Source: Candidatus Korobacter versatilis
GTDB taxonomy: Bacteria; Acidobacteriota; Terriglobia; Terriglobales; Acidobacteriaceae
Assembly: GCA_016185395.1 (NCBI GenBank)
Contig: JACPNR010000009.1
Coordinates: 1 to 64,000, forward strand
Length of the DNA: 64,000 nt
Direction of reading: 5' to 3'
Positions 31,004 to 46,147 of the stretch are shown piece after piece; position 1 is the stretch's first letter; each line of letters opens with the position of its first letter. Position numbers and translations under genes: made by a program. The notes below the pieces were generated by a model. It worked only from the letters and a program-made list of their open reading frames with translations. It searched no databases and had not been told where the DNA came from.

Positions 31004-31741
31004 ATGTTCTATCGCTCTGACAATCGCTCGCCCGACCAGATGCGTCCGGTGAACATCATCCCCGACTTCATTTCCACCGCGGAAGGTTCGGCGCTCATCG
31101 AGATCGGCAACACGCGCGTGATCTGCACCGCTTCCATCGAGCAGACCGTGCCGGTCTTTCTCCGCAACAGCGGCAAGGGATGGATCACCAGCGAGTACGC
31201 CATGATCCCGCGCGCCACGCTCACGCGCACGCCGCGCGAAGTGGTGAAGGGCCGCCCCAGCGGGCGCACCCACGAGATCCAGCGCCTCATCGGCCGCGCG
31301 CTGCGCGCCGTGACCGACCTGAAGCGCCTGGGCGAGCGCACCATCTGGATCGACTGCGACGTCATCCAGGCGGACGGCGGCACGCGCACCGCGTCCATCA
31401 CCGGCGCATTTATCGCGATGGGATTGGCGCTACAGAAGCTCGTCGAAGCGGGCACGCTCACGTCGGCGCCGGTGCGCGACTTCATCGCCGCCACCAGCGT
31501 GGGCATCGTCGAGGGCGAAGTGCTGCTCGACCTCGCCTACGATGAGGACTCTCGCGCCGAGGTCGACCTCAACCTGGTGATGACCGGCAGCAAGAAGATC
31601 GTGGAGATACAGGCGACCGCCGAGCAGCATCCCTTCGACGACGCGCAGCTCAAGAAGATGATGGACTACGCGCGCGCCGGTATCGAGTCGCTGGTGACCA
31701 AACAGCAGGCTGTGCTCAAAGGGCTGGCGCTGCGGCAGTAG
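31004..31741 (+). CDS. rph: Ribonuclease PH
   Basis: RNase PH trims tRNA 3' ends using phosphate. The 245-residue protein has the family start [53 protein letters not shown] (phosphate-binding arginines), [20 protein letters not shown] and [20 protein letters not shown]. Length and all blocks are normal. It follows murI by 16 bp and is followed by a strong palindromic repeat, shared with the convergent amidohydrolase. Confidence 0.96.
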
Positions 31742-31762
31742 GCTTGCCTTCCTTTTTAATTA

Positions 31763-31842
31763 CACCCCGAGCGTAGCGAGGGAGCCCTATCGCCACGAAG
31801 AAGCTTGGTGAAGGTAGGGTTCCCTCGCTTCGCTCGGGATGT
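31763..31842. repeat. Palindromic intergenic element PAL-A, copy 1
   Basis: Arms CCCGAGCGTAGCGAGGGAGC... (31766-31789) and its complement (31815-31838) match at 22 of 24 positions around a 25-nt loop. A related sequence lies at 43768-43850. It sits tail-to-tail between rph and the amidohydrolase, so its hairpin could also act as a transcription end, though no T-tract follows. PAL-A is a label used here only. Confidence 0.75.
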
Positions 31843-31862
31843 AAAACAAATGCAGAGAACCA

Positions 31863-33194
31863 TCAACGGCGAAGCTCATCCTTGTAGACCTTTCCGCCCT
31901 TCATCACCCACTGCACGTGCTCGAGCGTCTTCACGTCCGCGAGCGGGTCGCCGGAGACCGCGATGATGTCCGCATACTTTCCTGCGTCGAGCGAGCCAAT
32001 GTCCTTGCTGCGGCCAAGCAGGTCGGCGGCGTTCATGGTGGCGGCGCGGATCGCCTCCGCCGGCGTCATGCCGTACTTCACCATCACGGCGAACTGGCGC
32101 GCGTTGTCGCCGTGCGGATACACGCCGGCATCGGTGCCGAACGCCATCTTCACGCCGGCCTGGTGCGCCTTGCGGAAGTTGTCGCGCTGCAACTGCCCGA
32201 CCACCTTCTCCTTGTTGACCTTCTCTTCCGAGAGTCCGAATTTGATCGCCTCGCCGAGCAGGTAGTCGTCGTTGTAGATGTCCATCACGAAGTACGTGCC
32301 GTGCTGCTTGGCGAGGCGGATGCCTTCATCGTCCACCAGCGAAGCGTGCTCGATGGAGTCGATGCCAGCATTGATCGCGTTCTTGATGCCTTCGGGACCG
32401 TGCGCGTGGGCGGCGATCTTGCGTCCACCGGCGTGGGCTTCGTCGGCTGCGGCTTTCAATTCCGCCAGCGAGAACTGTGGCGCACCCGGTTTGTCTCCGC
32501 GCGAGAGCACGCCGCCAGTGGCGATGATCTTGATCACGTCCACGCCGTATTTTTCCTGCGCGCGCACCACGTGGATGACCTGATCCACGCCGTCGGCGAT
32601 GCCAAAGCCGCGCTCTTCCGGGAACATGGTCACGCGGGTCTGGGGCGAATAGTTGTTCAGGTCGCCGTGCCCGCCGGTGATGGAGATGCCGGGGCCGCTC
32701 GCCACCACGCGCGGGCCGGGAATGAATCCTTCATTGATCGAGTTGCGCAGGTCCACAGCGAGGAACGGAAGCGAGCCTACGTCGCGGACGGTGGTAAAGC
32801 CGGCCTCGAGCGTCTTCTCCGCGTTCACCACACCCGCGAAGGCGGAGTTGAATGGCGTATCGCGGAAGTCGTACAGCTCGTCGTAGCGGTCGGCACGGGA
32901 GCCAAGGTGGGTGTGGCAGTCGATCAGACCAGGCAACAGCGTGGCGTTGCCCAAGTCGATGGCCTCGGCGTTGGGCGCTTGCGTCGCAAGCTGCTCGGCG
33001 GACCCGATGGACTTGATGCGGTCGCCCTCGATCAGCACCGCGACACCGCTCTTGTACTGTCCCGTCGCGACATCGAGCAGCCGCGCGGCCTTCACGATGA
33101 CGACCTTCGGCGCCGGCTTGGCGGCGGGCTGGGATTGTGCAAACGAGAGGCACGACAACAACGCCAAAGCGAATACCACTCCGCGCATGCGCAT
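31863..33194 (-). CDS. Secreted amidohydrolase (imidazolonepropionase/prolidase-like)
   Basis: This 443-residue metal-dependent hydrolase starts at an ATG 6 nt after AGGAG. Its signal peptide (about 1-20, ALALLSCLSFAQS) could alternatively be a lipobox at Cys15. The barrel has HTH after LLPGLIDC (His94/His96), KIIATGGVLSRG, the histidine pairs AAHAHG and SIEHASL, and the catalytic Asp in AFGTDAGVYPHGDN. Relatives hydrolyse Xaa-Pro or Xaa-Lys/Arg dipeptides or cyclic amides; the substrate is open. Divergent from the aldolase gene. Confidence 0.88.
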   Translation of the reverse strand: MRMRGVVFALALLSCLSFAQSQPAAKPAPKVVIVKAARLLDVATGQYKSGVAVLIEGDRIKSIGSAEQLATQAPNAEAIDLGNATLLPGLIDCHTHLGSRADRYDELYDFRDTPFNSAFAGVVNAEKTLEAGFTTVRDVGSLPFLAVDLRNSINEGFIPGPRVVASGPGISITGGHGDLNNYSPQTRVTMFPEERGFGIADGVDQVIHVVRAQEKYGVDVIKIIATGGVLSRGDKPGAPQFSLAELKAAADEAHAGGRKIAAHAHGPEGIKNAINAGIDSIEHASLVDDEGIRLAKQHGTYFVMDIYNDDYLLGEAIKFGLSEEKVNKEKVVGQLQRDNFRKAHQAGVKMAFGTDAGVYPHGDNARQFAVMVKYGMTPAEAIRAATMNAADLLGRSKDIGSLDAGKYADIIAVSGDPLADVKTLEHVQWVMKGGKVYKDELRR

Positions 33195-38105: not shown

Positions 38106-38134
38106 GGAGCGTCAGGATACATCGAAAAATGAAA

Positions 38135-38205
38135 ACCGCAGAGGACGCGGATGAGGCAGAGGTTTTTCTGTTTCTTTCCTCTGCGTCCCTGGCGTCCTCT
38201 GCGGT
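38135..38205. repeat. CGCAGAGGAC-type inverted repeat between membrane gene and leuS
   Basis: ACCGCAGAGGACGC (38135-38148) and GCGTCCTCTGCGGT (38192-38205) are perfect 14-bp complements. Inner AGGCAGAGG/CCTCTGCGT pair almost fully. It sits just downstream of leuS on the minus strand and could also act as a transcription end or mRNA stabiliser. Confidence 0.75.
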
Positions 38206-38221
38206 CGTGATTCGACCTGCT

Positions 38222-42703: not shown

Positions 42704-43753
42704 ATGCTCATCGTGATGCAGGCGCACGCCACTGAAGAACAGGTGCGCGCGGTCTGCGACAAAGTCTCGTCCCTCGGCCTGAAGGCGCACCCTATCCCGG
42801 GAGCGCAGCGCACCGCCATCGGCATCACCGGCAACCAGGGCGCGGTCGAGATCGGCGTGTTCGACGATATGGCCGGAGTCGGCGAGGTCATCCGCGTCTC
42901 CAAGCCCTACAAGCTCGTCAGCCGCGACATCAAGGAAGACAACACCATCATCCGTTTCCCTGCCCTCGACGCCTCCATCGGCGGCCAGGAGTTGGCCATC
43001 ATGGCCGGACCGTGTGCCATCGAGAGCCGCGAACAGGCATTCACCGTGGCAGAGCGCGTTCGCCGTGCGGGCGCAAAATTCTTTCGCGGCGGCGCCTACA
43101 AGCCCCGGACTTCTCCGTATTCGTTTCAAGGACTCGGCGAGGAAGGCCTGCGCATCATGGCCGAGGTCCGCGACAAGTTCGGCATGGTCATCGTGACCGA
43201 GGCCATCGACCACGAGTCGCTCGACCTGGTGGAGCAATATGCGGACGTCATCCAGATCGGCGCGCGCAACATGCAGAACTTCTCGCTGCTCAAGAAAGCC
43301 GGGCGCGCGCAGAAGCCCGTGCTGCTCAAGCGCGGCATGTCCGCCACGCTCGAAGAGTTCCTCATGGCGGCGGAGTACGTGATGGCCGAAGGCAACTACA
43401 ACATCATCCTGTGCGAGCGCGGCGTGCGTACCTTTGCCGACCATACCCGCAACACGCTCGACCTCTCGCTCGTCCCCGCCGTGCAGCGCCTGAGCCATTT
43501 GCCCATCGTCGTGGACCCGAGCCACGGCACCGGCAAGCGCAACAAAGTCCTGCCGCTCTCGCGTGCGTCCATCGCCGTGGGCGCCGACGGCCTGATGGTG
43601 GAGGTGCACAACGATCCCGACCGCGCGCTCTCTGACGGGCCGCAGTCCATCTTCCCCGATCAGTTCGACCAGTTGATGAACGAAGTGCGGCAGATCGCTG
43701 GCGTCGTCCACCGGAGCGTTGCAGCGCAGCAGGCAGTCGCCGCCGTCCGATAA
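42704..43753 (+). CDS. 3-deoxy-7-phosphoheptulonate synthase with ferredoxin-like domain
   Basis: DAHP synthase joins phosphoenolpyruvate and erythrose-4-phosphate, the first step towards aromatic amino acids. The 349-residue protein has an N-terminal ferredoxin-like regulatory domain (about 1-68) and then the barrel. Barrel landmarks are [12 protein letters not shown] (metal Cys), [31 protein letters not shown] and [11 protein letters not shown] (metal His). This arrangement matches the Thermotoga-type AroF/AroG family. GGGAG precedes the ATG. Together with aroK it covers two shikimate steps in the window. Confidence 0.93.
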
Positions 43754-43767
43754 GGCCCGGTTCCAAA

Positions 43768-43850
43768 CATCCCCGAGCACAGCGAGCGAGCCCTATGCTC
43801 ACGAAAATTCGTGGTTGGGTAGGGATTCCTCGGCCGTCGGCCTGGGAATG
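43768..43850. repeat. Palindromic element PAL-A, copy 2, overlapping a lipoprotein start
   Basis: This copy aligns over its whole length with 31763-31842: CCCCGAGC, AGCGAG, GAGCCCTAT, CACGAA and GGTAGGG recur at matching spacing. The right arm is more diverged. It begins 15 bp after the DAHP synthase stop and covers the ATG (43795) and about 18 codons of the next gene. Confidence 0.7.
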
Positions 43851-44979
43851 TGTTCGAGCGACCGCGCTGCTGCTGCTCGTGTTTTTCCTTCTTTCCTGCG
43901 ACCCCAAGCTTCCCAACTATCCGCCCGCCTACCGCGAGTACGCCTACGTGACGAATGGCGCGAGCGACAGCGTGAGCGTGATCGACCTGCTCCACTTCCG
44001 TCTCGAGAAGAGCGTTGCCGTTGGAAAAGGCCCCACCGGCGTGGCGGTGAATCCGATGAAGAACGAGGTCTATATCGTCAACTCGGATTCCGCCAACGTG
44101 AGCGTGCTCGATGCCGAGACCAACGCGATTACGTTCACCATCGGCGTGCACGGCCATCCTTATTTCATCGACGTCTCCGCCGACGGCAAGCGCGCCTACG
44201 TTGCGAACTCCGGCTCAGCCAACGTCAGCGTGCTCGACCTCGACCGGCACACGTTGCTCGCTACCATCGGCGTGGGCGCGCAACCCGGCCTCGCGCGCGT
44301 CTCGCCGGATGGCGCTACCGTGGTGGTGACGAATCGCGCCGGCAATTCCGTCTCTCTCATCGACGCCGCGAAGCTCGCGGTGCGGGCGACCGTGCCGGTG
44401 TGCCAGTCGCCCGAGCAGATCGCCATCCTGCCCGATTCCACCAAAGCCTTCGTGTCCTGCTCGGCCTCGAACCAGGTCGCGGCCATCGACTTGAAAAGCG
44501 GCACTGTGCTGGCGCTGCTCGACGTGGGCCAGTCGCCTGTGAGCCTCACGCTCAAGCCCGATGGCGGCCAGCTCTTCGTGGAGAACTTCGGTTCGCAGTC
44601 CATCTCGGACATCAACACGCAGACGAACGAGGTCGGCGGCACGTACCTGATCGGGCAAGGCCCGGTGCGCGGCGTGGTCTCGACCGACAACGCACGACTC
44701 TACGTCAGCAACTTCGGCTCCGATTCGGTGGCCGTCTACACCATCACCACCGGCAAGGTGACCGCGTCGGTGCAGGTCGGCTCGAAGCCAGACGCGCTCG
44801 CACTCACGCCAAACCAAACCTATCTTCTCGTTTGCGACACCGCCGCCGGCGACGTGGCGGTCGTGCGCACCCGCGTCACCTCCACCAGTATCCCCGTGCT
44901 GCTGACGATGATCCCGGTGGGACGCGAGCCGCGACAGATCGCGGTAAAGAACTTCATGCTGCGCAAACCGCCGCGATAG
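43795..44979 (+). CDS. YncE-like beta-propeller lipoprotein
   Basis: The product (394 residues) is a lipoprotein with lipobox LLSC (Cys35). It is followed by about seven YVTN-type beta-propeller blades such as EYAYVTNGASDSVSVIDL, VYIVNSDSANVSVLD and LYVSNFGSDSVAVYTI. Such surface or periplasmic propellers bind partners or cofactors of unknown kind. No alternative ATG/GTG/TTG gives a full signal peptide, so the start lies inside palindromic element PAL-A copy 2, which encodes roughly the first 18 residues. Confidence 0.83.
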   Translation: MLTKIRGWVGIPRPSAWECVRATALLLLVFFLLSCDPKLPNYPPAYREYAYVTNGASDSVSVIDLLHFRLEKSVAVGKGPTGVAVNPMKNEVYIVNSDSANVSVLDAETNAITFTIGVHGHPYFIDVSADGKRAYVANSGSANVSVLDLDRHTLLATIGVGAQPGLARVSPDGATVVVTNRAGNSVSLIDAAKLAVRATVPVCQSPEQIAILPDSTKAFVSCSASNQVAAIDLKSGTVLALLDVGQSPVSLTLKPDGGQLFVENFGSQSISDINTQTNEVGGTYLIGQGPVRGVVSTDNARLYVSNFGSDSVAVYTITTGKVTASVQVGSKPDALALTPNQTYLLVCDTAAGDVAVVRTRVTSTSIPVLLTMIPVGREPRQIAVKNFMLRKPPR

Positions 44980-45078: not shown

Positions 45079-45084
45079 TATGCT
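45079..45084 (+). promoter_or_regulatory. Possible -10 box for leaderless murB transcript
   Basis: TATGCT ends 7 nt before the ATG at 45092. The earlier in-frame ATG at 45080 lies inside this box, so if the box is real, initiation is at 45092. Confidence 0.3.
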
Positions 45085-45091
45085 TGCGCCA

Positions 45092-46147
45092 ATGAACATT
45101 GCAGAAAACATCCCGCTTGCGCCGCTCACTACGTTCCGCGTTGGGGGCGCGGCGCGCTGGTTCGCCGAAGCGCGCAGCGCTGAAGAAGTGCTGCGAGCGG
45201 TGGACACGGCGCGCGCCAACAACTGGCGTCTCTTCGTCCTCGGCGGCGGCAGCAACCTGGTGGTCGCGGATACCGGTTTCCACGGCCTCGTCCTGCGCAT
45301 CGCCATCACCGGCATCGACGACAAGATGGAAGACGGCAAGCGCGTGTTCGAGGCCGGCGCGGGAGAAGACTGGGACAAACTCGTCGCCCACGCGGTCGCG
45401 CGCGATTGCGCCGGCGTGGAATGCCTGAGCGGCATCCCAGGAACCGTCGGCGGCACGCCCGTGCAGAACGTGGGTGCGTACGGTCAGGAAGTCGCCGACA
45501 CCATCAGCGCCGTCCAGGTCTTCGACATGCAGCGCGGCGTCGTACGCGACATCTGCGCCGAAGCGTGCGGCTTCGGCTATCGCACGTCCATCTTCAATAC
45601 CAGCGAGCGCGGGCGCTTCATCGTGCTGAAAGTCTCTTATGCGCTTCGACCGGGCGGCGTGCCGACCCTGGAGTACGCCGACCTGAAGAAGCACTTCGCC
45701 GGAAGCGACGGCACGCCGACGCTCGCCGCCGTGCGTGACGCCGTCCGGCAGATACGCCACTCCAAGGCGATGGTCATCGTCGAAGGCGACCCGGACTGCC
45801 GCAGCGCCGGCTCGTTCTTCAAGAACCCCATCGTCGACGGGGCGACCGACGCGCGCATCCAGCAAGTCGCCACCGAACGCGGCCTCACCCCGCCTCGCTT
45901 CGCCACGCCCGAAGGCACGAAGCTCTCCGCCGCCTGGCTCGTCGAGCAGTCGGGATTCCACAAGGGATACACGCGTGGCGCGGTCGGACTCTCGTCGAAG
46001 CACACCTTGGCCATCGTGAACCGCGGTGGGGCCAAAGCCACCGAGATCGTAGCGCTCAAGGATGAAATACAGCAGCGCGTCCACGGGACGTGGGGCATCG
46101 ATCTCCATCCCGAGCCGGTCTTCGTCGGCTTCGACGACGCGCCTTAG
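45092..46147 (+). CDS. murB: UDP-N-acetylenolpyruvoylglucosamine reductase
   Basis: MurB reduces UDP-GlcNAc-enolpyruvate to UDP-MurNAc using FAD and NADPH. The 351-residue chain has PLTTFRVGGAARW, the FAD loop GGGSNLVVAD, SGIPGTVGGTPVQNVGAYG, the active-site serine region GSFFKNPIV and LSSKHTLAIVNRGGA. The ending GIDLHPEPVFVG is normal. I prefer ATG 45092 to 45080 because of the possible -10 box, with four residues of difference. It stands away from other mur genes. Confidence 0.95.
   Translation: MNIAENIPLAPLTTFRVGGAARWFAEARSAEEVLRAVDTARANNWRLFVLGGGSNLVVADTGFHGLVLRIAITGIDDKMEDGKRVFEAGAGEDWDKLVAHAVARDCAGVECLSGIPGTVGGTPVQNVGAYGQEVADTISAVQVFDMQRGVVRDICAEACGFGYRTSIFNTSERGRFIVLKVSYALRPGGVPTLEYADLKKHFAGSDGTPTLAAVRDAVRQIRHSKAMVIVEGDPDCRSAGSFFKNPIVDGATDARIQQVATERGLTPPRFATPEGTKLSAAWLVEQSGFHKGYTRGAVGLSSKHTLAIVNRGGAKATEIVALKDEIQQRVHGTWGIDLHPEPVFVGFDDAP

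Follow-up and report, generated by a model that had tools for sequence, protein, structure and literature searches.

The locus analyzed here lies in a window of 64,000 nt, the first 64 kb of contig JACPNR010000009.1 (C7) from a genome of Candidatus Korobacter versatilis (GCA_016185395.1; 2.48 Mb in 15 contigs; hereafter G000). On the forward strand, an aroF-type gene for 3-deoxy-7-phosphoheptulonate synthase (DAHP synthase; 42704-43753; PF00793, NCBIfam PRK08673) is followed by an open reading frame (ORF) of 394 aa with an ATG start (43795-44979), present in the ORF list and matching PF21783 (YNCE) and TIGR02276 (YNCE/YVTN-type repeats), which was assigned to a beta-propeller lipoprotein. Its translation shows a hydrophobic run followed by the motif LLSC (residues 32-35), the pattern of a lipoprotein signal; core and motif span 43867-43899 (+), and the presumed lipidated residue, Cys35 (codon 43897-43899), aligns with the VLGC of the orthologue from G001, the only same-genus genome compared. 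Based on this motif, we take LLSC to be the lipobox of the ORF. A decayed copy of a dispersed palindromic repeat, PAL-A (copy 2, 43765-43853), spans the junction between both genes, and the sequence evidence supports an origin within this repeat for the only conventional start codon of the lipoprotein gene and for the n-region of its signal peptide.

Copy 1 of PAL-A (31760-31844), located between ORFs 31004-31741 (+) and 31863-33194 (-), is a near-perfect hairpin with a predicted RNA fold of -63 kcal/mol (z -11) and many matching places across the genome. In order to evaluate copy 2 independently, an alignment of 11 full copies from which it was excluded (A1) was used to build a model (R1), to which copy 1, a training member, scored 98 bits. 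The search of the genome with R1, in which 150 of 1612 first-look candidates were scored and copy numbers are thus lower bounds, resulted in at least 18 separate places at E ≤ 1e-3, rising to at least 19 at E ≤ 0.01, the 11 training copies among them. The held-out copy 2 was matched with 35.2 bits on the + strand and 34.4-34.5 bits on the - strand, with E-values, which are rough for this model, of 1.3e-5 genome-wide and 3.5e-7 in the window, ranking 16th among the 19 places listed at E ≤ 0.01. It also scored 62 (forward) and 70 (reverse) against a hand-written PAL-A consensus, for which 4,959 random 89-mers of the window reached 32 at most, and blastn aligned it to copy 1 with 76% identity over 63 nt. 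Its RNA fold was less pronounced (z -2.5 and -3.5, vs. -11 for copy 1). Copy 2 is a true but decayed member of the PAL-A family.

PAL-A is usually 83-115 bp long (83-115 nt in the 16 best-scoring places) and its ends pair as TTACAT...ATGTAA, as expected of a miniature inverted-repeat transposable element (MITE), a non-coding element of 70-300 bp with terminal inverted repeats. Matches to R1 (E ≤ 0.001) were found in 13 of 37 genomes, G000 included, all 13 being among the 23 genomes of its family, while the 14 genomes from elsewhere in the order had none. Since compensatory base changes were detected in none of 22 pairs, PAL-A is considered a DNA repeat rather than a conserved RNA. No R1 match at E ≤ 1 was found around the Y1_Tnp matches of G000 (8) and G001 (3), Y1_Tnp being the only transposase type searched. 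Many copies in G000 (loci L171-L185) lie between mechanically called ORFs converging from both sides, as described for repetitive extragenic palindromic (REP) elements.

The lipoprotein frame is open back to an in-frame stop at 43633-43635. Between this stop and the lipobox, the only ATG, GTG or TTG codons are ATG 43795 and GTG 43879, the latter inside the hydrophobic core, in line with the original prediction that no other usable start precedes the lipobox. Near-cognate codons were found inside the repeat (ATT 43807 and 43825) and in the core (CTG 43867-43873), the sole one upstream of the repeat being ATA 43750, within the last bases of aroF. Any plausible start followed by an n-region would therefore lie in the repeat, as the conventional and near-cognate codons elsewhere fall in the aroF end or in the core. 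From ATG 43795 to 43853 (+), about 19.7 codons are encoded by the repeat (MLTKIRGWVGIPRPSAWEC plus part of V). The original prediction had rightly placed the ATG inside copy 2 and quoted the odd N-terminal residues exactly, while its count of about 18 codons was too low and its element slightly too narrow. The repeat-derived n-region (19-20 residues, a stretch that includes MLTKIRGWVGIPRPSAWE) contains K4, R6 and R13 and is followed by VRAT, the native core and the lipobox. This arrangement, with the repeat in frame at the N-terminus and the sole conventional start inside it, is structurally that of the YPO1552/RU-2 type of N-terminus discussed below. At the position of the start, the PAL-A consensus reads CCCTATC and copy 2 CCCTATG, one small change; the copy at L173 also has an ATG at that position, followed by 18 open codons.

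Orthologues of the lipoprotein were retrieved at E ≤ 1e-20 from 57 of 61 genomes searched (G000 included), together with 70 further loci from named genomes (L091-L160) out of 80 returned; ten at the end of that list, which came mainly from other phyla, were left out. After identical loci were dropped, 96 distinct orthologous loci remained (window's included), so that 95 others were compared. Judged by these orthologues, the relatives of G000 are metagenome-assembled genomes of Acidobacteriota/Terriglobia and Granulicella. This comparison had been set beforehand as the refuting test of the original prediction, which orthologues sharing the N-terminal residues but lacking element-like DNA would have contradicted, and the prediction withstood it: none of the 95 resembled the N-terminus MLTKIRGWVGIPRPSAWECV beyond shuffles at p ≤ 0.01 (best p 0.065), and none carried DNA similar to copy 2 in the 300 nt preceding the core (the best score, 29, fell short of the 32 reached by random sequence against the PAL-A consensus). 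Longer n-regions were observed in a group of five loci (L106, L109, L110, L119 and L123), with pairwise matches extending to residue 8 in L106, L119 and L123; L106, L110, L119 and L123 were considered as orthologues with the same N-terminus and rejected, since they showed no similarity beyond shuffles (p 0.55-0.97); L109 also belonged to the 95 compared. When 99 orthologue loci were searched with R1, 11 matches at E ≤ 1 were obtained in 6 loci, and only L067 (G028) had one between aroF and the gene: a palindromic repeat at 2685-2780 with a weak match (30.7 bits), upstream of a separate and intact TTG start.

In many family members the n-region consists of a few residues (L/M-R-K-L-L), and TTG starts are near or overlap the aroF stop (e.g. 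at -4 nt in L072, L092 and L097). These overlapping or abutting starts suggest that aroF and the propeller gene may be translationally coupled. Many orthologues have no lipobox Cys and resemble N-terminal membrane anchors, the mode of anchoring thus varying within one family. At L143, the spacer upstream of the core contains a terminator-like hairpin and T run that overlap the predicted signal-peptide region (z -4.4).

In order to distinguish an insertion from a replacement, distances between aroF and the core were compared. An aroF gene was found upstream in 67 of the 96 distinct loci, and within 300 nt in 50 of them (window's included); the start heuristic, which takes the closest start lying 20 or more codons before the core, was wrong for several rows, and counts are based only on start-independent distances. 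In the window, 176 nt separate the aroF stop from the conserved core (residue 46), or 87 nt once the 89-nt repeat is subtracted, and the same distance is 82-134 nt in 35 of the 50 close-linked loci. As 87 nt is within this usual range, a clean insertion, with the native start later lost or displaced, is simpler and fits better than a replacement. The original prediction, according to which an insertion had replaced the native 5' end and made a new start, thus keeps its repeat-borne start, while the replacement is less supported; in addition, the start ATG is absent from the PAL-A consensus. Alignment to G001 points to GTT 43852 and GCG 43858 as candidate relics of the native start. Identified dispersed repeats were present in the spacer of 3 of the 50 close-linked loci (G000, G001 and L067), carrying a start in two of them.

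The spacer of G001 (L062), of 242 nt, harbors a different palindromic repeat of 158 bp (GGGTCAT...ATGACCC), which has two other matches in that genome (81% and 78% identical over query positions 12-172) plus many partial ones; without it, the spacer would measure 84 nt. The nearest in-frame ATG of the G001 lipoprotein (MTLVGGFALLVLGC) is the ATG of the terminal ATGACCC of the repeat, and other in-frame starts are a GTG three codons further in, an ATG inside the repeat and an ATG just left of it. Since ATTATGAC directly adjoins the left side of the repeat, the start of G001 may be a native ATG preserved by matching ends. It may be proposed, with more doubt than confidence, that two unrelated palindromic repeats were independently inserted in the same aroF-lipoprotein spacer of two congeners, each carrying the lipoprotein start, and that a gene translationally coupled to aroF was thereby given a start within a hairpin. 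The presence of a different repeat in this spacer of a congener offers a natural comparison of how starts are rewired.

The explanation favored here, to which we give a probability of roughly 65%, is that a PAL-A copy was inserted in the aroF-lipoprotein spacer, and that ATG 43795 of the repeat is now the start and the repeat residues the n-region. The copy would have entered a short spacer, at or just upstream of the native start (in many relatives a TTG, often a few bases from the aroF stop or overlapping it), which would have been parted from aroF and lost. Initiation would take place at ATG 43795, a codon of the repeat's left half that is followed by an open frame through the right end; the use of this codon is inferred from sequence. 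The repeat residues would act as a tolerated, positively charged n-region before a core and lipobox that are native. In lipoproteins, the signal peptidase cleaves before the lipobox Cys; a cut in front of Cys35 would take away every repeat-derived residue and leave the mature lipoprotein unchanged, which would account for tolerance of the repeat. Since n-regions accept nearly any sequence and are subsequently removed, a repeat can land there without altering the mature protein. The locus is thus a testable case of dispersed palindromic repeats rewriting gene fronts.

Several observations weigh against this explanation. No Shine-Dalgarno-like GGAGG was visible by inspection upstream of ATG 43795, and the codon lies in a predicted stem, for which reason initiation is predicted to be weak, or to rely on ribosomes coming from aroF, which ends 41 nt before the codon. 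Moreover, in-frame starts occurred in 33 of 96 exit frames of 16 PAL-A copies (15 being ATG), vs. 50% (21% ATG) in shuffled sequences; a special capacity of PAL-A to supply starts was not supported, and ATG 43795 may be incidental, as PAL-A copies give in-frame starts no more often than shuffled DNA. No consistent target-site duplication was detected by eye in the flanks of PAL-A copies, and the GTTC found on both sides of copy 2 (43760-43763 and 43852-43855) may be due to chance. In addition, empty sites were observed only outside the genus; in the single congener compared, the spacer is occupied by another repeat. The missing motif, the stem, and the chance starts in about half of the shuffled exit frames (ATGs in 21%) would also fit a repeat that had disabled initiation, leaving a silenced or decaying gene in which ATG 43795 opens a frame by mere chance. 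This is unlikely, given that the whole 394-aa ORF is preserved, with 78% identity to its counterpart in G001 over residues 28-394, despite the strong decay of copy 2; the same combination of a strongly decayed copy and an intact ORF suggests that the insertion is old and that the body has been kept intact.

A similarly low probability is assigned to initiation at a non-standard codon that borders the repeat or lies downstream of it (a native relic such as GTT 43852 or GCG 43858, or CTG 43867), in which case the repeat would be merely 5' untranslated sequence. The short n-regions of relatives would fit such a start, as would the 14 codons up to the Cys, which align without gaps between G000 (GCG ACC ...) and G001 (ATG ACC ...), and passages of Di Nocera et al. 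2013 (PMC3733652) caution that many REPs at predicted N-termini may be extragenic, since translation may begin further downstream. For copy 2 this caveat is partly answered by the lack of a conventional downstream start: the first ATG, GTG or TTG past the repeat is GTG 43879, and initiation at one of the CTGs would deprive the protein of an n-region. That a native N-terminus merely resembles a repeat by chance is very improbable; although the 16th rank of copy 2 among 19 listed places and its modest fold leave some room for it, the held-out E-value (1.3e-5), the consensus scores (62-70, vs. a random maximum of 32) and the lack of orthologues with the same residues argue otherwise, and it was rejected based on the held-out model and the random 89-mers.

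Repeat-derived gene fronts are already known, and the novelty lies in an example from the Acidobacteriota; no previous report of an acidobacterial one was found in the open-licence papers searched. In the passages of Delihas 2007 (PMC2759123, PMC2229807) that concern it, the predicted signal peptide of YPO1552 of Yersinia pestis is partly RU-2 (RU-2/YPAL), and homologues in other genera have unrelated signals. Both cases share a repeat-derived signal-peptide N-terminus with unrelated signals in relatives, but YPO1552 involves another repeat family and phylum and, as far as those passages go, a hydrophobic cluster belongs to the RU-2 frame itself, whereas PAL-A would give the start and n-region, core and lipobox being native. 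The Rickettsia palindromic elements (RPEs), palindromes of 105-146 bp in frame inside protein genes, were reported as in-frame fusions in 19 reading frames (Ogata et al. 2000, as cited in part in PMC2229807), and an RPE-containing guanylate kinase was studied as protein (PMC2229807, same passages). Here too a palindromic repeat is in frame within a protein gene; going by that partial account, the difference lies in 19 fusions vs. the one N-terminal case presented here, located in a part expected to be cleaved off. The pattern published for enterobacteria and Rickettsia is thus extended to a gene of the Acidobacteriota.

REPs (GTAG/CGTC) and the terminal inverted repeats of Y1-transposase (TIRYT) genes, including Koribacter, are described in sections of Di Nocera et al. 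2013 (PMC3733652), with Acidobacteria among the hosts; REPs are there mostly downstream of genes, between unidirectional or convergent ORFs, and sometimes at ORF N-termini. PAL-A resembles these elements, as outlined in those sections, in being a palindrome found between convergent ORFs and, in the present case, at an N-terminus, and differs in its greater length (about 85 bp or more) and in having no match at the loci of the 8 Y1_Tnp matches of its own genome.

The 15 other PAL-A copies (L171-L185) were also inspected for repeat-borne gene starts by scanning 20 ORFs from 11 loci against Pfam. A TldD-like ORF (L172:1542-3083) has its first ATG in the repeat; because two more in-frame ATGs follow downstream, ahead of the domain, no second clear case of a repeat-borne start was obtained. 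At the opposite gene end, a PAL-A copy in L182 contributes the final codons and the stop codon of an M24 peptidase ORF (1566-1585).

Regarding the remaining context, promoter and terminator scans of 43500-44000 yielded nothing, the RNA fold of 43740-43930 was ordinary (z 0.10), and the single sub-threshold match to Rfam was judged to be chance. One weak match to PHROGs, of unknown function, was obtained. Downstream of the lipoprotein gene lies a murB-like gene (45080-46147, +), assigned by domain and family matches. A further inverted repeat of the window, at 38128-38212, has 35-nt arms that are 77% complementary and a 15-nt loop.
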